DNA of 64,000 nt from Solirubrobacter ginsenosidimutans (lineage in GTDB: Bacteria; Actinomycetota; Thermoleophilia; Solirubrobacterales; Solirubrobacteraceae): NCBI RefSeq assembly GCF_027587205.1, contig NZ_JAPDOD010000015.1, positions 62,001-126,000 of the forward strand. Reading direction: 5' to 3'. The notes beneath the pieces are model-generated. The model was not told the origin of the DNA and did not search any database. It saw nothing but the letters and a program-made list of their open reading frames with translations. Below, piece by piece: positions 4,584-48,130 of the stretch (position 1 is its first letter; the number at the start of each line of letters is the position of its first letter). Made by a program: the position numbers and the translations under genes.

Positions 4584-5402
4584 TTAGCGCAGGAGCGAGA
4601 GAACGCTCTGCGGGGCCTGGTTGGCCTGCGCGAGCATGCTCGTGCCGGCCTGCTGCAGGATGTTGAGCTTCGTGAACTTCGTCATCTCCTCCGCCATGTC
4701 CACGTCGCGGATACGCGACTCCGAAGCGGTGAGGTTCTCCTGGTAGGTCGCCAGGTTGTTCAGGCGATGCTCGAGGCGGTTCTGCACGGCGCCGAACGCG
4801 GCACGCGCGGTGGAGACGTCCTTGATGGCGTTGTCGATGTCGGAGACCGTGACGGCCGACAGCGCGGCCGCGTCGGACGCGCCGAGGACCACCGAGACGG
4901 CCGAGCCGCCGGCCAGGTCGATGGCGCTGGCGGCGATGGTCTCGCCGTCGTTGGCGCCGACCTGGAAGTTCAGCGTCGAAGCGGCGTTGAGCAGCTTGGT
5001 GCCGTTGAATGCCGTGTCGGAGCTGATCGCCGTGATTTCGGTGCCGAGCTGGTTGACCTCGGCGGCGATGGCGTCCTTGTCCTCGGTAGCGAGGGTGTCG
5101 TTGAGCGACTGGACCTTCAGGTCACGGATGCGCTGCAGCATCGAGTGAACCTCGGTCAGCGCGCCTTCCGCCGTCTGGACGAGCGAGACGCCGTCCTGGG
5201 CGTTGCGCTGCGCCTGGGCGAGGCCGCCGATCTGACCGCGCATCTTCTCGGAGATCGCGAGACCCGCGGCGTCATCGGCGGCGCGGTTGATGCGGTAGCC
5301 GCTGGAAAGCTTCTCCATCGACTTCGACGCGGCGGACGCCGTGGCCGTCAGCTGACGGTGGGTGTTGAACGCTTCGACGTTGTTCTGAATACGAAGGCCC
5401 AT
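4584..5402 (-). CDS. fliC: Flagellin (paralog 1)
   Basis: A 272-residue flagellin. The conserved N-terminal D0/D1 region opens [18 protein letters not shown] and includes [19 protein letters not shown] (about 33-51). The C-terminal region includes [13 protein letters not shown] and ends [13 protein letters not shown]. The middle (about 135-195) is the only variable part, so there is no large D2/D3 domain. It polymerises into the filament after export by the flagellar type III apparatus. The gene is monocistronic with its own promoter, leader hairpin and terminator. The coding sequence is nearly identical at both ends to paralogs 2 and 3. Confidence 0.97.
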   Translation of the reverse strand: MGLRIQNNVEAFNTHRQLTATASAASKSMEKLSSGYRINRAADDAAGLAISEKMRGQIGGLAQAQRNAQDGVSLVQTAEGALTEVHSMLQRIRDLKVQSLNDTLATEDKDAIAAEVNQLGTEITAISSDTAFNGTKLLNAASTLNFQVGANDGETIAASAIDLAGGSAVSVVLGASDAAALSAVTVSDIDNAIKDVSTARAAFGAVQNRLEHRLNNLATYQENLTASESRIRDVDMAEEMTKFTKLNILQQAGTSMLAQANQAPQSVLSLLR

Positions 5403-5405
5403 GAT

Positions 5406-5422
5406 TCAACGCTCCTTGTTGA
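5406..5422 (-). promoter_or_regulatory. Ribosome-binding site in a hairpin loop, flagellin 1 (second CsrA site candidate)
   Basis: On the mRNA, UCAAC and GUUGA form a 5-bp stem presenting AAGGAGC, so the Shine-Dalgarno GGA is in a loop 9 nt before the ATG. CsrA recognises GGA in loops. The same element occurs unchanged at 7368-7384. Confidence 0.5.
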
Positions 5423-5441
5423 TCGGGTGAAGGGCTGCCTC

Positions 5442-5462
5442 GAGGCGACTCCATGTCGCCTC
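5442..5462 (-). promoter_or_regulatory. AUGGA-loop leader hairpin of flagellin 1 (putative CsrA site)
   Basis: An 8-bp perfect stem (GAGGCGAC/GUCGCCUC) with loop AUGGA, at the predicted 5' end of the transcript, 39 nt before the ATG. ANGGA in an apical loop is the recognised CsrA signature. Confidence 0.7.
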
Positions 5463-5471
5463 AATCACGGT

Positions 5472-5497
5472 GATCGGCCCGCCGGCCGCGTTCTTTA
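5472..5497 (-). promoter_or_regulatory. Sigma-28-like promoter of flagellin 1
   Basis: TAAA (5494-5497), 15-nt spacer, GCCGATC (5472-5478). The leader is about 60 nt. Confidence 0.75.
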
Positions 5498-5503
5498 ATG
5501 CGG

Positions 5504-5526
5504 ACGGGCGGCCAGTGGCCGCCCGT
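5504..5526 (-). terminator. Terminator hairpin of flagellin gene 2
   Basis: A 10-bp stem (5504-5513 with 5517-5526) and three-base loop, 28 bp past the flagellin 2 stop and immediately upstream of the flagellin 1 promoter. Confidence 0.6.
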
Positions 5527-5554
5527 CGAGGAGGGAGGAGTGCGCGCTAGCGCT

Positions 5555-6376
5555 TTACTGGCGCAGCAGCGACAGGACGCTCTGCGGGGCCTGGTTGGCC
5601 TGCGCGAGCATGCTCGTGCCGGCCTGCTGCAGGATGTTGAGCTTCGTGAACTTCGTCATCTCCTCCGCCATGTCCACGTCGCGGATACGCGACTCCGAAG
5701 CGGTGAGGTTCTCCTGGTAGGTCGCCAGGTTGTTCAGGCGATGCTCGAGACGGTTCTGCACCGCGCCGAAGGCCGCGCGGCCGGTCGAGACGTCCTTGAT
5801 GGCCGCGTCGATGTCGGAGATGGCGATCGCCGAGAGCGTGGCCTGGTCGGATGCGCCGAGGACCACCGAGACCGACGAGCCGCCGGCCAGGTCGATCTTG
5901 GACGCCGAGATCGACTCGCCGTCGTTGGCGCCGACCTGGAAGTTCAGGGTCGCGGTGCCGTCGAGCAGGGTCGTGCCGTTGAACGCGGTGGTGGTGCCGA
6001 TCTTCGTGATCTCGTCGCTGAGCTGGCCGACTTCGGCCGCGATCGCGTCCTTGTCCTCAGAAGCGAGCGTGTCGTTGAGCGACTGGACCTTCAGGTCACG
6101 GATGCGCTGCAGCATCGAGTGAACCTCGGTCAGCGCGCCTTCCGCCGTCTGAACGAGCGAGATGCCGTCCTGGGCGTTGCGCTGGGCCTGGGCGAGACCG
6201 CCGATCTGACCACGCATCTTCTCGGAGATCGCGAGACCCGCGGCGTCATCGGCGGCGCGGTTGATGCGGTAGCCGCTGGAAAGCTTCTCCATCGACTTCG
6301 AAGCAGCAGCGCTCGTCGCGGAGAGCTGACGGTGTGTGTTGAAGGCTTCGACGTTGTTCTGAATGCGAAGGCCCAT
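5555..6376 (-). CDS. fliC: Flagellin (paralog 2)
   Basis: A 273-residue flagellin with the same conserved D0/D1 ends as its neighbours and a short variable centre, different mainly around residues 118-190. It ends SVLSLLRQ, one residue longer than paralogs 1 and 3. The ATG at 6376 is preferred over an in-frame TTG two codons upstream, because AAGGAG lies 8 nt before the ATG and because both paralogs start MGLRIQ. Its leader differs from the other two except for the AUGGA hairpin loop, so this paralog may respond differently to CsrA. Confidence 0.97.
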
Positions 6377-6399
6377 GGCCAAGACTCCTTGTAAGGAAC

Positions 6400-6416
6400 G
6401 GCCGCTCCATGCGGCC
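6400..6416 (-). promoter_or_regulatory. AUGGA-loop leader hairpin of flagellin 2 (putative CsrA site)
   Basis: A 6-bp stem (GGCCGC/GCGGCC) with loop AUGGA, 23 nt before the ATG. The stem sequence is unrelated to those of flagellins 1 and 3, while the loop is identical. Confidence 0.65.
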
Positions 6417-6433
6417 CGGACGGATACGGGAAG

Positions 6434-6460
6434 TTTCGGCAGCCCAATCGAGCGGCTTTA
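6434..6460 (-). promoter_or_regulatory. Sigma-28-like promoter of flagellin 2
   Basis: TAAA (6457-6460), 16-nt spacer, GCCGAAA (6434-6440). The transcript would start near 6427, just ahead of the AUGGA hairpin. Confidence 0.7.
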
Positions 6461-6466
6461 GCGCTT

Positions 6467-6530
6467 AAACGCGTCCGGGTCCGTACCCGCCAGGCCGAAG
6501 CCTGGAGAACACGGACCCGAGAAGGCGTTT
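6467..6530 (-). terminator. Compound hairpin after flagellin gene 3
   Basis: Nested stems: AAACGC/GCGTTT (6467-6472 with 6525-6530), CGGGTCCGT/ACGGACCCG (6476-6484 with 6511-6519) and CCAGGC/GCCTGG (6490-6495 with 6500-6505). It starts 12 bp past the flagellin 3 stop and abuts the flagellin 2 promoter. Confidence 0.55.
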
Positions 6531-6542
6531 AGCGGGGTCTGC

Positions 6543-7364
6543 CTAGCGCAGGAGCGAGAGAACGCTCTGCGGGGCCTGGTTGGCCTGCGCGAGCATGCTC
6601 GTGCCGGCCTGCTGCAGGATGTTGAGCTTCGTGAACTTCGTCATCTCCTCCGCCATGTCCACGTCGCGAATCCGCGACTCGGAGGCGGTGAGGTTCTCCT
6701 GGTAGGTCGCCAGGTTGTTCAGGCGATGCTCGAGGCGGTTCTGCACCGCGCCGAACCCGGCGCGAGCGGTCGAAACGTCCTTGATGGCCGCGTCGATGTC
6801 GGAGACCGTGACCGACGACAGCGACGACGCGTCGGACGCGGTGAGGACCTTGGAGACGGCCGAGCCGCCGGCCAGGTCGATCTGGCTCGCCGTGATCGTC
6901 TCGCTGTCGTTGGCGCCGACCTGGAAGTTCAGCGTGCCCGAAGCGCTGTTGAGCAGCTTGATGCCGTTGAACGCCGTGTCGGAGCTGATGGCCGTGATCT
7001 CGGTGCCGAGCTGGGAGACCTCGGCCGCGATCGCGTCCTTGTCCTCAGAAGCGAGCGTGTCGTTGAGCGACTGGACCTTCAGGTCACGGATGCGCTGCAG
7101 CATCGAGTGAACCTCGGTCAGCGCGCCTTCCGCCGTCTGAACGAGCGAGATGCCGTCCTGGGCGTTGCGCTGGGCCTGGGCGAGACCGCCGATCTGACCA
7201 CGCATCTTCTCCGAGATGGCAAGGCCGGCAGCGTCGTCCGCAGCGCGGTTGATGCGGTAGCCGCTGGAGAGCTTCTCCATCGACTTCGAAGCGGCGGTCG
7301 CCGTCGTGGTGAGCTGACGGTGAGTGTTGAACGCCTCGACGTTGTTCTGGATACGAAGGCCCAT
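6543..7364 (-). CDS. fliC: Flagellin (paralog 3)
   Basis: A 273-residue flagellin with the same conserved ends, starting [18 protein letters not shown]. The central region (about 120-195) differs from the other two by scattered substitutions and one extra residue near position 140. The 31 bases just before the ATG, including the ribosome-binding site, are identical to those of paralog 1, so the two probably arose by recent duplication including the leader. Which paralog dominates the filament cannot be told from sequence. Confidence 0.97.
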   Translation of the reverse strand: MGLRIQNNVEAFNTHRQLTTTATAASKSMEKLSSGYRINRAADDAAGLAISEKMRGQIGGLAQAQRNAQDGISLVQTAEGALTEVHSMLQRIRDLKVQSLNDTLASEDKDAIAAEVSQLGTEITAISSDTAFNGIKLLNSASGTLNFQVGANDSETITASQIDLAGGSAVSKVLTASDASSLSSVTVSDIDAAIKDVSTARAGFGAVQNRLEHRLNNLATYQENLTASESRIRDVDMAEEMTKFTKLNILQQAGTSMLAQANQAPQSVLSLLR

Positions 7365-7367
7365 GAT

Positions 7368-7384
7368 TCAACGCTCCTTGTTGA
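7368..7384 (-). promoter_or_regulatory. Ribosome-binding site in a hairpin loop, flagellin 3 (second CsrA site candidate)
   Basis: Identical to the element of flagellin 1: a UCAAC/GUUGA stem with AAGGAGC in the loop, 9 nt between the AAGGAG and the ATG. Confidence 0.5.
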
Positions 7385-7405
7385 TCGGGTGAGAGGGCTT
7401 ACGAC

Positions 7406-7426
7406 GAAGCGACTCCATGTCGCTTC
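7406..7426 (-). promoter_or_regulatory. AUGGA-loop leader hairpin of flagellin 3 (putative CsrA site)
   Basis: An 8-bp stem (GAAGCGAC/GUCGCUUC) with loop AUGGA, 41 nt before the ATG. Compared with flagellin 1, one G-C pair has become A-U on both arms, a compensatory change. Confidence 0.7.
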
Positions 7427-7435
7427 AGCCAAGCT

Positions 7436-7461
7436 AATCGGCGCTCGCCGATGAGACTTGA
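7436..7461 (-). promoter_or_regulatory. Sigma-28-like promoter of flagellin 3
   Basis: TCAAGTCT (-35 core TCAA at 7458-7461), 15-nt spacer, GCCGATT (7436-7442), in the gap after the upstream membrane gene. Confidence 0.7.
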
Positions 7462-7470
7462 GGGAGTTGC

Positions 7471-7845
7471 TTAGACCGTTCGGGCCTGGCGCTCGGCCGC
7501 TTCGCGCTCGCGCTCTTCGCGCTGGGCCTTGAGCTTCTCTTCGCGCTCTTCCTCGAGCTGGCGCACCTCGGAGATGACGATGTGGCGCCAGATGACGATC
7601 GCGAAGCGCCAGACGACCACGTTGGCCACGATGCCGGCCAGCAATGCGCGCCAGACGGCGTCGAACAAGTCCTGGTCGCCGACGATGTTCAGGGCGAGGA
7701 CGAGCGCGAAGACGATCAGCGCCGCGCGCGTGCGGGCGCGGCGGATACCGGCCTTCGCGCGCGGGTGCGCGGCGATCGACACGACCAATTCGGGCTTCTC
7801 GCCCTTCTCGGACTTGCCCTTGCCCTTGTCCTTTTCCTTGGCCAT
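7471..7845 (-). CDS. Small membrane protein with C-terminal coiled coil, unknown function
   Basis: A 124-residue protein with a Lys/Glu-rich cytoplasmic N-terminus (1-38), two hydrophobic segments (about 40-56 and 64-88) and a highly charged heptad-like C-terminal helix (93-122). I recognise no domain. Its ATG shares one base with the TGA of the PilZ gene (TGATG), making it the last gene of the fliO-to-pilZ operon. A partner role with the PilZ protein or the flagellar base is conceivable but only inferred from the coupling. Confidence 0.75.
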   Translation of the reverse strand: MAKEKDKGKGKSEKGEKPELVVSIAAHPRAKAGIRRARTRAALIVFALVLALNIVGDQDLFDAVWRALLAGIVANVVVWRFAIVIWRHIVISEVRQLEEEREEKLKAQREEREREAAERQARTV

Positions 7846-8462
7846 CAGCCTCGGGAGGCCCGCAGCGCTTTGACCTCGCGGTCGCGGATGTAGCGCATCA
7901 GACGATCCTCGTCGGGACGCGACACGCTGTCAAAGCGAATGCCCTTCTGGTGCTCATCGGAGCCGACGCGCACCACACGCCCAAGGGCTTCCAGCGGCGG
8001 GCCGTCCGGCATCTGAAGCACGATGCGGACGTCGATCTCCAGCGGCAGGCTGAACTTGTCGGCGATGCGCATACCGCGGCAGGAGAGATCGAGCGTGGTC
8101 GTCTCGCCGCCGACATCCTCGTCGATGCCGCGGATCGTGACATCCAGGTGCGCCGCGACGCGGACGAACTCGCGCCGCTGGATGCGTTCGACGTCGCCGC
8201 TGAGCGCGATGGTGAGCGAGCCCGCCTTCTGCGCGGAGAGCGCGCCGGTGTAGCGGTGGATCCCGCGCCCGGAGGTGATCTCGACCGCGATCTCGTGCCC
8301 GACGAGCCGTTCGATGCGGTCGTCCTTGACCGCCAGGGCGACGGTGACCGACGCCGCGTCGGCCTTCTCGATCGTCGCCGGGAGGATGCCCACGTGGACG
8401 TTGCGCACGATCACGTGCTGGCCCGGGGTCAGGGTCGGCGCTGAGGCGGGCACGGAGCTCAT
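7845..8462 (-). CDS. PilZ-domain c-di-GMP-binding protein (YcgR/YpfA-like)
   Basis: A 205-residue protein with an N-terminal YcgR-like beta domain (about 10-92) and a C-terminal PilZ domain. RREFVR at 96-101 supplies the RxxxR motif, and DLSCRG at 125-130 supplies the D/NxSxxG motif; together these bind cyclic di-GMP. Such proteins act as flagellar brakes on MotA or the rotor. Position at the end of the flagellar export operon, downstream of flhF, supports that role. No diguanylate cyclase or phosphodiesterase of the GGDEF/EAL type is visible in the window. Confidence 0.88.
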   Translation of the reverse strand: MSSVPASAPTLTPGQHVIVRNVHVGILPATIEKADAASVTVALAVKDDRIERLVGHEIAVEITSGRGIHRYTGALSAQKAGSLTIALSGDVERIQRREFVRVAAHLDVTIRGIDEDVGGETTTLDLSCRGMRIADKFSLPLEIDVRIVLQMPDGPPLEALGRVVRVGSDEHQKGIRFDSVSRPDEDRLMRYIRDREVKALRASRG

Positions 8463-17321: not shown

Positions 17322-17341
17322 GGAATTAGCGCCTCCATGCG

Positions 17342-18190
17342 CTAGGGAGTTGACTCCGTGTCGGTGCTGCTTGTGTGGATCCGGGAGAGGACGATCTCCA
17401 CCCGCCGGTTCCGGGCACGGCCTTCCGCCGTGGAATTCGTGTCGATCGGGATCTGGCTGCCGAAGCCCTGCACGGTCATCCGGTTCGCGAGGACGCCGAT
17501 CTCGGCGAAGTCGTTGACCACTGCGGCGGCGCGATCGCCGGACAGGTTCCAGTTGGACTGGTAGCGCGAGTTCGAGATCGGCTGCGAGTCCGTGTAGCCC
17601 TCCACGACGACGGGATGGCTGTGCTCGTCGCGCACGATCTGGCCGATCTTGGCGACCAGGCGGTGCGCCTCGGGGTGCAGGACCGCCTCACCCGAGGAGA
17701 AGAAGACCTTGTCCGTGAGCAGCTGGATCACCAGGCCGCGCCGGCGCACGGTCACATTGACCTTGCCCGAGACGCCGGCCTCCTTGGCGAGCTTGTCCAC
17801 GCGCCGCTTGAGCGCGCGGAAGTCCTGCTCCTCCTGCTTGGCCAGCTTCGCTTCCTCGGCGACGTTGTGCTGGCGACTCGTGTTGTTGATCGCGGTCAGC
17901 GGGCGCAACGACGGCAGGGGCGGCTCAACCGCGGACTGCTTGGTCTTCTTCTCGTCCGAGCCCGAGTTGAGCATCGAATGACCGCCGTCGAGCACGGCCC
18001 CCGAGAACGCGTCCTTGAGGGACTTCTGGAGCGCCTCGAATTTGGACGTGTTCACGGAGGAGATCGCGAAGAGCACCATGAAGAGGCAGAACAGGAGCGT
18101 CATCATGTCCGCGAAGGACACGAGCCAGCGTTCCTCGTTCTCGTGCTCCTCCTCATGGTGAGCCCGCTTCTGTCGCTTGTGCCCAGCCAT
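17342..18190 (-). CDS. motB: MotB, stator protein
   Basis: A 282-residue protein. The charged His/Glu/Arg-rich N-terminus is followed by the single transmembrane helix with the ion-carrying Asp28 in SFADMMTLLFCLF. A linker and a C-terminal OmpA-like peptidoglycan-binding domain (about 150-270, with VEGYTDSQPISNSRYQSNWNLSGDRA) complete it. It anchors the stator to the wall. Ion specificity cannot be settled from these residues alone. Confidence 0.95.
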   Translation of the reverse strand: MAGHKRQKRAHHEEEHENEERWLVSFADMMTLLFCLFMVLFAISSVNTSKFEALQKSLKDAFSGAVLDGGHSMLNSGSDEKKTKQSAVEPPLPSLRPLTAINNTSRQHNVAEEAKLAKQEEQDFRALKRRVDKLAKEAGVSGKVNVTVRRRGLVIQLLTDKVFFSSGEAVLHPEAHRLVAKIGQIVRDEHSHPVVVEGYTDSQPISNSRYQSNWNLSGDRAAAVVNDFAEIGVLANRMTVQGFGSQIPIDTNSTAEGRARNRRVEIVLSRIHTSSTDTESTP

Positions 18191-45118: not shown

Positions 45119-46465
45119 ATGCCTATTTCTTCTTTCTACGGGATGCAGACGTCGCTGCGCGGCTTGATCGCGCAGCAGCGAATGCTCGACACCACCGGCC
45201 ACAACATCGCGAACGCGTCGACGGTCGGCTACTCGCGCCAGGAGGCGCTGCTCTCGGCCTCGATGGCCCAGCAGGTCACCGTCTCCGGCTCGTCCGTCGC
45301 CGTCGGCTCGCACCTCGGCTCCGGCGTCGACGTCCAAGGCTTCCGCCGCATCCGCGATCAGTTCCTGGACGCGCAGTACCGCGCCCAGAACACGAACCTG
45401 AGCGACTGGAAGTCGCGCGCCGAAGGCCTCGACTCCGCCGAGCTCTCGCTCAACGAGCCCTCCGACACCGGCATCCAGGCCCAGCTGACGAAGTTCTGGG
45501 GCGCCTGGTCGGACCTGTCGAAGTCCCCTGACGACCAGGCCGCCAAGCAGGCGCTGGTCCAGCAGGCGGGCGCGCTGACCGACGCGATCCACTCCGTGCG
45601 CTCGCAGATGTCGGACGCGCAGGCCGCAGCCACCACCCAGTACGACCAGATCGTCGGTCCTGGCGGCGAGGTCGAGAAGATCTCGACCGAGCTCGCCGGC
45701 CTTAACAAGACGATCAGCTCGTTCATCACCAACGGCGACAGCCCGAACGACCTGATGGACCGCCGCGACCTGCTGATCGATCAGCTCTCGACGTACGGCC
45801 AGGTCTCCGTCGACCAGCTCGCCAGCGGCTCGACCAACGTCTCCTTCGTCGATGGCACGACCGGGACCAAGTACCCGATCGTGACCGACCAGTCCGCGGA
45901 CTGGGCCGGCCCTCCCGGCGGCGGCTGGTCTCCCGGCGGCCAGATGGGCGGCCTGCTCGCGATCGGCAAGTCCGGCGGCACGATCGACGGCTACCTCCAG
46001 AGCATGGACGACTTCTCGAACTCGCTCGCCACCGCGGTCAACAACGCGTACGGCGGGCAGTTCTTCGACGTCGGCTCGCCCGCGGGCGCCACGATCAACG
46101 TCGCGGCCCCGATCGCGGCCGCGCCGGCGAGCATCGTCTCCGGCACCGGCGCCTCGGGCTCCAACGACCTCGCCATGGCCGTCTCGCAGCTGCGCGGCAA
46201 CGCCGCGATCGACGGCGTCTACAAGGCGTTCGTCGCGAAGGTCGGCGGAGACCTCAACGAGTCCACCCGCATGCAGGCCAACGCCCAGGTCCTCGCCGAC
46301 TCCGTCGAGGATCGCCGCCAGAGCGTGGCGGGCGTCTCGATGGACGAGGAGATGTCCAACCTCGTGCGCTTCCAGCGCGCCTACCAGGCCTCCGCACGCG
46401 CCATGTCAACGATGGACGAGATGCTGGACGTCCTCATCAACCGCACCGGAAAGGTCGGTCTGTAG
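45119..46465 (+). CDS. flgK: FlgK, hook-filament junction protein 1
   Basis: A 448-residue protein: SSFYGMQTSLRGLIAQQRMLDTTGHNIANASTVGYSRQEALLSA, GSGVDVQGFRRIRDQFLDAQYRAQN, DLMDRRDLLIDQLSTYGQV, and VSMDEEMSNLVRFQRAYQASARAMSTMDEMLDVLINRTG at the end. Length is slightly below average. It lies 9 bp after flgN and 4 bp before flgL. Confidence 0.96.
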   Translation: MPISSFYGMQTSLRGLIAQQRMLDTTGHNIANASTVGYSRQEALLSASMAQQVTVSGSSVAVGSHLGSGVDVQGFRRIRDQFLDAQYRAQNTNLSDWKSRAEGLDSAELSLNEPSDTGIQAQLTKFWGAWSDLSKSPDDQAAKQALVQQAGALTDAIHSVRSQMSDAQAAATTQYDQIVGPGGEVEKISTELAGLNKTISSFITNGDSPNDLMDRRDLLIDQLSTYGQVSVDQLASGSTNVSFVDGTTGTKYPIVTDQSADWAGPPGGGWSPGGQMGGLLAIGKSGGTIDGYLQSMDDFSNSLATAVNNAYGGQFFDVGSPAGATINVAAPIAAAPASIVSGTGASGSNDLAMAVSQLRGNAAIDGVYKAFVAKVGGDLNESTRMQANAQVLADSVEDRRQSVAGVSMDEEMSNLVRFQRAYQASARAMSTMDEMLDVLINRTGKVGL

Positions 46466-46469
46466 TCCC

Positions 46470-47393
46470 ATGCGCATCACCACCTCCATGGTCCAGCGCA
46501 ACGTCCTCTCGGACCTCAACACGCTGCAGACCGCACTCGCCAAGACGCAGTCCAAGGCCGCCTCCAACAAGGAGATCACGCGCCCGTCGGACGATCCGTT
46601 CAAGGCCGCTCAGGCAATGGGCATGCGGGCGAACATCGGCGCCAACGAGCAGCTGATCCGCAACATCCAGGACGCTCAGGGCTGGCAGGACTCGACCGAG
46701 TCCGCGCTGGACTCGATCACCCAGTACGTCAACCGTGCGCACGACCTGCTGCTGCAGGGCGCCACGGACACCGCCGACGCGGACTCCAAGATGGCGATCG
46801 CCAAGGAGATCGATCAGATCATCCAGGGCGTCAAGGAGACCGCGAACGCCAGCTACGGCGACAAATACATCATGTCCGGGACCGCGACCTCGGTCGCGCC
46901 GTACCTGATGGGCGACGACGACACCTACCAGGGTGACCTCGGCGGCCTGGACCCGGCCACGCCCGGCATCGTGCGTGAGATCGGCCCCGGCGTGACGATG
47001 ACGATCAACTCGGTCGCGGTCGAGATCCTCGGCGACGGTCGCACCAACCCGACCGACGGCAAGCTGCTCAACCAGCTGCGCGACATCTCCGATCACCTCA
47101 AGGCCAACGACGGCGCCGCCCTGCGCGGCGGCGACATGACCGGCCTGCAGAACCGCCTCGACGGGCTGCTCGAGATCCGCGCCCGCAACGGCGCGCAGAC
47201 CAACCGGCTCGAGGCCGCTCACACGCGGATCGATCAGATCAACGGCACCCTGACCGACCAGCTCTCGCAGACCGAGGACGCTGACATCGGCAAGACGCTG
47301 ATCGACTTCAACTCGCAGTCCGCCGCCTACCAGGCCGCGCTGAAGGCCGGCGCGAACATCGTGCAGGCGTCGCTCATGGATTTCCTCCGCTGA
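46470..47393 (+). CDS. flgL: FlgL, hook-filament junction protein 3
   Basis: A 307-residue flagellin-like protein: MRITTSMVQRNVLSDLNTLQTALAKTQSKAASNKEITRPSDDPFKAAQAMGMRANI and, at the C-terminus, RNGAQTNRLEAAHTRIDQINGTLTDQLSQTEDADIGKTLIDFNSQSAAYQAALKAGANIVQASLMDFLR. Confidence 0.96.
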   Translation: MRITTSMVQRNVLSDLNTLQTALAKTQSKAASNKEITRPSDDPFKAAQAMGMRANIGANEQLIRNIQDAQGWQDSTESALDSITQYVNRAHDLLLQGATDTADADSKMAIAKEIDQIIQGVKETANASYGDKYIMSGTATSVAPYLMGDDDTYQGDLGGLDPATPGIVREIGPGVTMTINSVAVEILGDGRTNPTDGKLLNQLRDISDHLKANDGAALRGGDMTGLQNRLDGLLEIRARNGAQTNRLEAAHTRIDQINGTLTDQLSQTEDADIGKTLIDFNSQSAAYQAALKAGANIVQASLMDFLR

Positions 47394-47445: not shown

Positions 47446-47883
47446 ATGTCCACCCTCACCATCGACTCTTCGCGCTTCGGCACGCTCGAGATCGCGTCCG
47501 CCGACGTGATCGAGTTCCCGGCCGGCCTGATCGGGCTCGGCGGGCGCCAGTACGCGCTCGTCACCCAGGACGGCGACAGCGCGTTCTGCTGGCTGCACTC
47601 GATCGACGACCCGTCGATCGCGCTGCCGGTCACGAACCCGTGGAACTTCTTCGCCGACTACTCGGTCGACGTCTCCGACGAGGCGTCGCAGGCGATCACG
47701 TCCGACGCGGCCGACGTCGCGGTCTTCGTGACGATCCGCGCCGGCGCCGAGCTCTCGGACTTCTACGCCAACCTGCGTGCACCGATCTTGATCGCCGACG
47801 GCCAAGGCCACCAGGTCATCAATGAGTCCCCGGACGCTCCCGTCCGCGCCCCGCTCTTCCCGGCCATCGTCGCCGCGGCCTAA
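47446..47883 (+). CDS. fliW: FliW, flagellar assembly factor and CsrA antagonist
   Basis: A 145-residue protein of the FliW fold (VIEFPAGLIGLGGRQYALV, AFCWLHSIDDPSIALPVTNPW, TIRAGAELSDFYANLRAPILIADGQGHQVI). In Bacillus FliW binds either flagellin or CsrA: when flagellin is exported, freed FliW sequesters CsrA and flagellin translation resumes. It sits 28 bp upstream of csrA, the standard arrangement, and its circuit targets are probably the three flagellin leaders in this window. Confidence 0.94.
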   Translation: MSTLTIDSSRFGTLEIASADVIEFPAGLIGLGGRQYALVTQDGDSAFCWLHSIDDPSIALPVTNPWNFFADYSVDVSDEASQAITSDAADVAVFVTIRAGAELSDFYANLRAPILIADGQGHQVINESPDAPVRAPLFPAIVAAA

Positions 47884-47911: not shown

Positions 47912-48130
47912 ATGCTGCTCATCACCCGCCGCGCAGGCGAGAAGATCATGGTGGGCGACGACATCGTCGTCCACATCAAGGAGATCGTCGGCAACACCGT
48001 CCGCGTCGGCATCGAGGCTCCGCGCTCGACCCCGATCTACCGCGAGGAGATCTGGCACGCCGTCCGCGAGGAGAACCGCGCAGCCGCCCAGGCGCCGTTC
48101 GAGCTACCGACAGCCACTCCCGCCGCCTAG
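47912..48130 (+). CDS. csrA: CsrA, RNA-binding translational regulator
   Basis: A 72-residue protein with the CsrA core MLLITRRAGEKIMVGDDIVVHIKEIVGNTVRVGIEAP and YREEIW; the RNA-contact residues near Arg6 and the IYREEI/V segment are present. An Ala/Pro extension of about 15 residues follows the core. It dimerises and represses messages with GGA in hairpin loops near the ribosome-binding site. It has a strong AAGGAGG ribosome-binding site. Confidence 0.96.
   Translation: MLLITRRAGEKIMVGDDIVVHIKEIVGNTVRVGIEAPRSTPIYREEIWHAVREENRAAAQAPFELPTATPAA

Follow-up and report, generated by a model that had tools for sequence, protein, structure and literature searches.

Conserved ANGGA-loop hairpins in flagellin leaders of Solirubrobacter ginsenosidimutans and its relatives point to a CsrA-FliW-flagellin circuit in Actinomycetota

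Three flagellin genes in the window are preceded by hairpins with an AUGGA loop

We analysed a stretch of 64,000 nucleotides (nt) from Solirubrobacter ginsenosidimutans (contig NZ_JAPDOD010000015.1, positions 62,001 to 126,000; hereafter the window), which carries three paralogous flagellin genes on the minus strand and an adjacent fliW-csrA pair on the plus strand. An initial annotation had proposed that the three flagellin mRNAs begin with hairpins sharing an invariant AUGGA loop and that CsrA represses all three coordinately. The hairpins can be read from the sequence and are listed here with their genes; the E-values are those of the covariance model R1 described below, for which all three leaders belong to the training set.

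4584..5402 (-), flagellin 1, 272 amino acids (aa)
5442..5462 (-), flagellin 1 leader hairpin (stem-loop 1, SL1), 8 base pairs (bp), loop AUGGA, GAGGCGAC-AUGGA-GUCGCCUC, R1 E 4.4e-12
5555..6376 (-), flagellin 2, 273 aa
6400..6416 (-), flagellin 2 leader hairpin SL1, 6 bp, GGCCGC-AUGGA-GCGGCC, R1 E 2.1e-6
6543..7364 (-), flagellin 3, 273 aa
7406..7426 (-), flagellin 3 leader hairpin SL1, 8 bp, GAAGCGAC-AUGGA-GUCGCUUC, R1 E 6.1e-10

Hairpins with an ANGGA loop closed by at least six perfect pairs occur five times over the two strands of the window, compared with a mean of 0.65 per window in 20 Markov simulations. Three of the five are the flagellin leaders; the others lie within a PilZ reading frame (near 8327) and at the motB-fliL junction (near 17338). 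A scan of the window against Rfam gave no match at or above the gathering score of any family. The stems of genes 1 and 3 differ by an exchange of a G-C for an A-U pair, as annotated. The annotation took the change of stem around a kept loop as strong evidence of function; one compensatory change among three paralogues is weak evidence, and it is the conservation and covariation in relatives that bear the claim out.

The hairpin is conserved among Thermoleophilia, with A-N-GGA as its invariant part

A flagellin search over 299 Thermoleophilia genomes gave matches in 60, of which 56 (hand count) yielded leaders; together with the three of the window these made 121 leaders, 119 of them unique, after rows that were too short, lacked a start or were not flagellin had been dropped (the minus row of L150, the first row of L230, L206 and L232; L224 had no start). 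A hairpin was scored by a fixed criterion: a loop ANGGA or ANGGAN closed by at least five pairs with no more than one mismatch and lying 15-75 nt ahead of the start codon. Of the 92 leaders with no csrA in the 600 nt upstream, 62 had such a hairpin, against a mean of 1.3 and a maximum of 4 in 50 dinucleotide shuffles; of the 27 with csrA that close, 6 had one. When hairpins of at least six pairs were sought without regard to the loop, 75 of the 92 leaders contained one, and GGA stood in or beside the loop in 56 of these 75, compared with 99 of 831 shuffled hairpins. Among the 256 loop words of the form xNyzw, ANGGA ranked first, being closed by at least six perfect pairs in 41 of 89 occurrences (runner-up, 4 of 26).

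The AUGGA loop, present in all three window hairpins, is thus one form of a more general element: in relatives the true invariant is A-N-GGA, the second loop position being free (U 26, C 21, A 11 and G 10 among 68 Thermoleophilia hairpins). With ties assigned to the shorter form, 46 of these hairpins score as five-base and 22 as six-base loops. A lack of loop conservation in related genomes had been named in the initial annotation as a result that would speak against its proposal. What we found is an A-N-GGA hairpin that is kept and covaries in flagellin leaders of Thermoleophilia and Actinomycetia, and that tracks csrA among the Firmicutes loci fetched.

A GGGAC box, which holds one more GGA, follows the hairpin closely on its 3' side in 28 of the 43 hairpin leaders from beyond the Solirubrobacter group (e.g. 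L181, L166 and L153) and in 0 of 19 inside it, the window included.

The stem covaries, and a covariance model finds flagellin leaders

For the analysis of covariation we aligned 44 of the 68 hairpin leaders; the set was thinned and the more divergent leaders were omitted, so that the alignment leans towards clean cases. In the 7-pair stem 96.7% of cells were paired, a value inflated by the choice of rows with a detector that requires pairing. Such a choice does not create double changes, of which the stem contained 50 cells, compared with 9.9 in shuffles. The covariation score was 0.568, against 0.180 in shuffled alignments and at most 0.096 in slid controls.

Model R1, built from this alignment, picks out flagellin leaders. 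The search of the 299 Thermoleophilia genomes gave 53 matches at E<=1e-4, spread over 34 genomes, all of them abutting flagellin starts: 52 adjoin a match of the flagellin search and the remaining one adjoins a ninth flagellin of the same array. Since 41 genome leaders were in the training set, at least 12 of the 53 matches were new to the model. In the window the three flagellin leaders were the best matches (E 4e-12, 6e-10 and 2e-6), the next one having an E-value of 0.01. The search was run with stricter filters, which lose weak matches, and R1 covers the two-part leader only, so there may be other CsrA targets.

Beyond E 1e-4, six of the next eight matches lie within reading frames and two just before other start codons. 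These two, L265 (26.8 bits) and L266 (25.9 bits), precede non-flagellin starts, fall short of the threshold and are not claimed as sites. L266 (G174:C6:231369-231426) resembles a flagellin leader, with GGTCAC-ACGGA-GTGACC followed by TCTTCAAGGAGGAAG before a 249-aa reading frame; at this score a chance match is possible.

The hairpins lie near the predicted 5' ends of the transcripts

Upstream of each hairpin a promoter-like sequence of the sigma28 type can be read by eye.

5471..5498 (-), sigma28-like promoter of flagellin 1, TTAAAG / GCCGATCA
6433..6461 (-), sigma28-like promoter of flagellin 2, CTAAAG / GCCGAAAC, with a longer spacer
7435..7462 (-), sigma28-like promoter of flagellin 3, CTCAAG / GCCGATTA

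A sigma70-type promoter scan of the window, ill-suited to such promoters, found none. The hairpins of genes 1, 2 and 3 begin about 11, 19 and 11 nt past GCCGA and are therefore near the predicted 5' end. The annotation had placed each hairpin at the predicted 5' end of its transcript; this is close to what we found, except that the hairpin of gene 2 begins about 10 nt inside the predicted transcript. Among Thermoleophilia, a strict sigma28-like pattern occurs within 180 nt of 38 of the 62 hairpin leaders, compared with 17 of 1240 mononucleotide shuffles; the corresponding counts are 9 of 30 for hairpin-less leaders and 7 of 27 for leaders with csrA within 600 nt. In 29 of the 38 the distance from GCCGA to the start of the hairpin is 9-17 nt, which again places the hairpin at or near the predicted 5' end.

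Among 28 leaders, the window's three included, 10 have the sigma28 promoter inside a perfect terminator-like palindrome, none of them in the window; the palindrome is of the type AAAGATCGGCCC-CTCG-GGGCCGATCTTT, as if the terminator of one flagellin gene and the promoter of the next shared bases. This arrangement was seen in the Solirubrobacter flagellin arrays L002, L003, L140 and L227.

The ribosome-binding site is a candidate second site

The annotation had proposed the ribosome-binding site as a second CsrA site. All three window leaders contain AAGGAG, and in two of them it is enclosed in a second stem-loop (SL2).

5406..5422 (-), flagellin 1 SL2, UCAAC-AAGGAGC-GUUGA around the ribosome-binding site
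6385..6390 (-), flagellin 2 ribosome-binding site, AAGGAG in the context ACAAGGA, the GGA predicted to be paired with UCC
7368..7384 (-), flagellin 3 SL2, UCAAC-AAGGAGC-GUUGA around the ribosome-binding site

Of the leaders lacking csrA close upstream, 69 have a ribosome-binding site of the AGGA type; in 24 of these an SL2 stem of at least four Watson-Crick pairs encloses it, whereas re-dealing the flanks among leaders gave a mean of 3.8 and a maximum of 10 in 500 rounds. The stem covaries (UCAAC/GUUGA, UCAUC/GAUGA, ACAUC/GAUGU, UCUUC/GAAGA and UCGAC/GUCGA), and the two GGAs are spaced 20-63 nt apart, with a median of 37. The proposal of a second site is supported by the covarying hairpin around AAGGA in relatives and in genes 1 and 3; in gene 2 this GGA is predicted to be paired.

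The window encodes FliW and a CsrA with the key residues

Elsewhere in the window, the plus strand carries the following genes.

45119..46465 (+), flgK, Pfam FlgK_D1 4.9e-36
46470..47393 (+), flgL-like gene directly upstream of fliW, Pfam Flagellin_N 6.7e-18
47446..47883 (+), fliW, 145 aa, Pfam FliW 4.1e-25
47912..48130 (+), csrA, 72 aa, Pfam CsrA 5.5e-21, with R44, V51, N55 and a C-terminal extension

The annotation of csrA and fliW as neighbours agrees with the Pfam matches. The gene at 46470..47393 is presumably flgL, judging by its position. The resulting order, flgK-flgL-fliW-csrA, is observed in the window and is also that of Bacillus subtilis. R44 is an RNA-binding residue of CsrA and V51 and N55 bind FliW; loss of V51 or N55 weakens FliW binding in Campylobacter jejuni, and that of N55 does so in Bacillus (PMC7829508). 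The window CsrA, with residues counted in the 72-aa protein, retains all three as well as the C-terminal extension.

Many Thermoleophilia (L080-L090 and others) have a second CsrA paralogue (MLVLTRKSNQSIMIG...) of different sequence, with R or N at position 55 (R in several) and no fliW match beside it.

The hairpin and fliW accompany csrA in other groups

We sought csrA in 43 genomes with Firmicutes loci and found it in 27. Counted without adjustment for kinship, a hairpin of at least four pairs is present at 26 of the 27 loci with csrA versus 0 of the 16 without. With L056 added, which is hairpin-positive and comes from a genome outside the csrA search, the counts are 27 of 28 versus 0 of 16, and at five or more pairs 24 of 28 (23 of 27 minus L056) versus 0 of 16. 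By leaders, the hairpin occurs in 34 of 38 with csrA versus 0 of 24 without. In these counts L072 and L073 are one genome, and L022 (a csrA-bearing Bacillota locus), L050 and L074 (no usable leader) were omitted. A search for fliW found none in any of the 16 csrA-less Firmicutes genomes.

Among 394 Actinomycetia genomes, flagellin was found in 48, csrA in 56 and both in 44, so that csrA is present in 44 of 48 flagellin genomes versus 12 of 346 others. Within the 48, fliW tracks csrA exactly, being present in the same 44 and absent from the same 4. Since 44 of the 56 csrA genomes bear flagellin and fliW tracks csrA, the data fit a chiefly flagellar CsrA in this group; 55 of the 56 have a single csrA match. 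The better-matching genomes supplied 37 leaders from 30 loci, and 33 of these leaders have the hairpin (mononucleotide shuffles, mean 0.36, maximum 2), with loops mostly ACGGAC or ACGGAU; it is also present in 13 of 13 loci of the Curtobacterium/Frigoribacterium type. L335 of G735, the sole usable leader from a csrA-less Actinomycetia genome, is among the four that lack it.

In Thermoleophilia, csrA was found in 56 of the 60 flagellin genomes and was absent from the search in G105, G288, G309 and G352, of which G105 and G288 gave no leader and G352 (L162) is hairpin-less by the strict criterion. Of the 118 Thermoleophilia genomes with csrA, 62 lack a flagellin match, so the gene also has other tasks in this class.

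Two loci have doubtful names: the flagellin contig L071, from a metagenome-assembled genome (MAG) named Patulibacter, bears a Curtobacterium-like leader, and the leaders of Sedimentibacter sp. SX930 (L039) are nearly identical to those of Trichococcus, each probably through contamination or misnaming.

A probable CsrA-FliW brake on flagellin synthesis and its alternatives

We consider it highly probable that the three flagellin mRNAs are two-site CsrA targets and that a CsrA-FliW-flagellin circuit is at work here. Because the CsrA-type hairpin recurs in many other flagellated actinobacteria, a flagellin brake of the Bacillus and Campylobacter type very probably operates in this lineage. By analogy with those systems, a CsrA dimer would place one pocket on the 5' hairpin with its A-N-GGA loop and the other on the AAGGA within the ribosome-binding site, which is frequently enclosed by a small hairpin, and this two-site grip would block flagellin translation. 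FliW, encoded next to csrA, would bind CsrA and lift the block; unexported flagellin would sequester FliW and so keep flagellin synthesis in step with export. The coordinate repression of the three genes proposed in the initial annotation is supported as an interpretation by the conservation, the covariation and the tracking of csrA, with CsrA binding, repression, relief by FliW and binding of flagellin to FliW all taken from the two model systems.

The circuit is known in Bacillus, Campylobacter and others (PMC7652899, PMC4894983). As in the B. subtilis hag leader, which has two CsrA sites, one of them over the ribosome-binding site (PMC7652899), the window leaders have a two-part arrangement. 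In contrast to hag, the window's three flagellin paralogues lie far from csrA and have a hairpin each, most Thermoleophilia hairpins have a five-base ANGGA loop, and the csrA-adjacent flagellins of relatives lack the hairpin. In C. jejuni, CsrA binds two ANGGA stem-loops of flaA, SL1 and SL2, the second lying over the ribosome-binding site, with compensatory changes among relatives as here (PMC4894983); that species belongs to another phylum, whereas in the window fliW adjoins csrA and here there are several target flagellin genes per genome. The fixed A and GGA with a free base between them, and AC before and GU after the loop in most Thermoleophilia stems, agree with the high-affinity CsrA/RsmE hairpin (ANGGAN hexaloop; RUACARGGAUGU from systematic evolution of ligands by exponential enrichment, SELEX; PMC7652899). 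The loops differ from that hexaloop in length, being mostly five-base in Thermoleophilia (46 of 68, with 22 six-base) and mostly ACGGAC or ACGGAU in Actinomycetia.

Several observations count against this interpretation. The SELEX hairpins have mostly four pairs or fewer and six-base loops, whereas the window hairpins have 6-8 pairs and a five-base loop, and position 4 of the window CsrA is I, L4 being highlighted as a contact residue (both PMC7652899). In gene 2 the second GGA is base-paired in the predicted fold, and the folding energies of the window leaders are only mildly low relative to dinucleotide shuffles (z -1.72, -0.34 and -1.37). Double changes affect 6 of the 7 stem pairs, a number that 58 of 500 shuffles also reached and that is not unusual. 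The strict criterion rejects 30 of the 92 leaders that have no csrA close by upstream; among them are several with GGA in a different loop, others with nothing evident, and the second gene of L154, which lies directly behind another flagellin. The csrA-less Firmicutes are largely kin, mostly related lactic-type bacteria, so their 16 loci are not independent. Finally, the search found no csrA in G309, yet one of its three leaders (L187) has the hairpin; this genome is either a counterexample to a strict link with csrA or incomplete.

The hairpin might be a mere 5' cap that protects an abundant, long-lived mRNA from decay, its loop being incidental. We regard this as improbable. A strong stem at or near the predicted 5' end suits such a cap, and some csrA-less Firmicutes leaders (among them L051, L053 and L023) retain a small 5' hairpin without GGA, e.g. 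GAAGG-CAAGA-CCTTC in L051; among 21 leaders, only 2 fell below 0.05 relative to shuffles, unadjusted, which is only suggestive of GGA having been lost along with csrA while a hairpin was kept. A cap does not account for A-N-GGA being kept while the stem and the second loop base vary, nor for the ANGGA hairpin in 0 of 16 csrA-less Firmicutes loci. mRNA protection could be a second role of the hairpin.

If the hairpin is a CsrA site, its partner might instead be the second, fliW-free CsrA paralogue, with FliW not governing. That paralogue is widespread in Thermoleophilia, divergent and in several cases R55, and in one MAG (G011) it was the only type of csrA found while the leader L013 has the hairpin. 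On the other hand, the single csrA match of G005 and that of G008 are of the fliW-linked type, and both genomes have the hairpin; Actinomycetia have a single csrA match in 55 of 56 genomes and fliW in all 44 csrA-bearing flagellin genomes, leaving this partner little likelihood. The nearly identical 3' halves of the leaders of genes 1 and 3 might suggest recent duplication or gene conversion of the upstream region, with no functional meaning, but for the element as such this is refuted by covarying conservation among diverged leaders of one class and by other stems and loops in another, and it has a negligible chance of being the explanation.

Actinobacteria have been counted among the groups that possibly control CsrA via FliW (PMC4682653), and in the excerpted text of a survey of actinobacterial flagella CsrA and FliW are named once each, in a gene list (PMC10746217). 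The open-licence literature searched yielded no account of CsrA sites in flagellin leaders of actinobacteria. Relative to that literature, our results would extend the CsrA-FliW-flagellin brake to Actinomycetota.

Flagellin copies behind csrA lack the hairpin

Among Thermoleophilia flagellins that start at most 130 nt past the end of a CsrA match, neither the hairpin (0 of 17) nor the strict sigma28 pattern (0 of 17) was found. Sixteen genomes have such a copy and another flagellin; in 15 of them the hairpin is borne by another copy and not by the csrA-adjacent one; the sixteenth is G010, whose other copies place GGA in different loops. On a protein tree of 43 flagellins the hairpin and hairpin-free classes are mixed, with 11 changes, of which well-supported branches force at least 9; the hairpin therefore follows promoter context and not protein lineage. 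This two-class pattern was observed in relatives, the window having no flagellin behind csrA.

Tentatively, the hairpin may divide the flagellins of one cell, with copies under sigma28 promoters subject to the CsrA-FliW checkpoint and the copy behind fliW-csrA escaping or setting it, as a pilot flagellin produced along with FliW and CsrA. The csrA-adjacent flagellins keep GGA-type ribosome-binding sites and may not truly escape CsrA. The type of circuit is known, and the hairpin-free copies next to csrA are possibly a new wrinkle in it; genomes with both kinds of flagellin offer a natural paired test of the role of the hairpin.

A possible further target and other features

The window contains one more pair of motifs of this kind, in front of fliL, which lies just behind motB.

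17327..17362 (-), motB-fliL junction, possible CsrA target, GAC-ACGGA-GUC followed by UAGCGC-AUGGAG-GCGCUA over the fliL ribosome-binding site

The first motif stands 10 nt upstream of the second. Both precede fliL in 5 of 8 relatives (G001, G002, G003, G009 and G229, all of a close Solirubrobacter type), with differing surrounding bases, and are absent from the other three (G004, G005 and G008). From these motifs fliL may be a further CsrA target, a lead only, since the first motif lies within motB codons and the genomes are close.

Upstream of flagellin 3, a 124-aa reading frame at 7471-7845 (-) gave no Pfam match.

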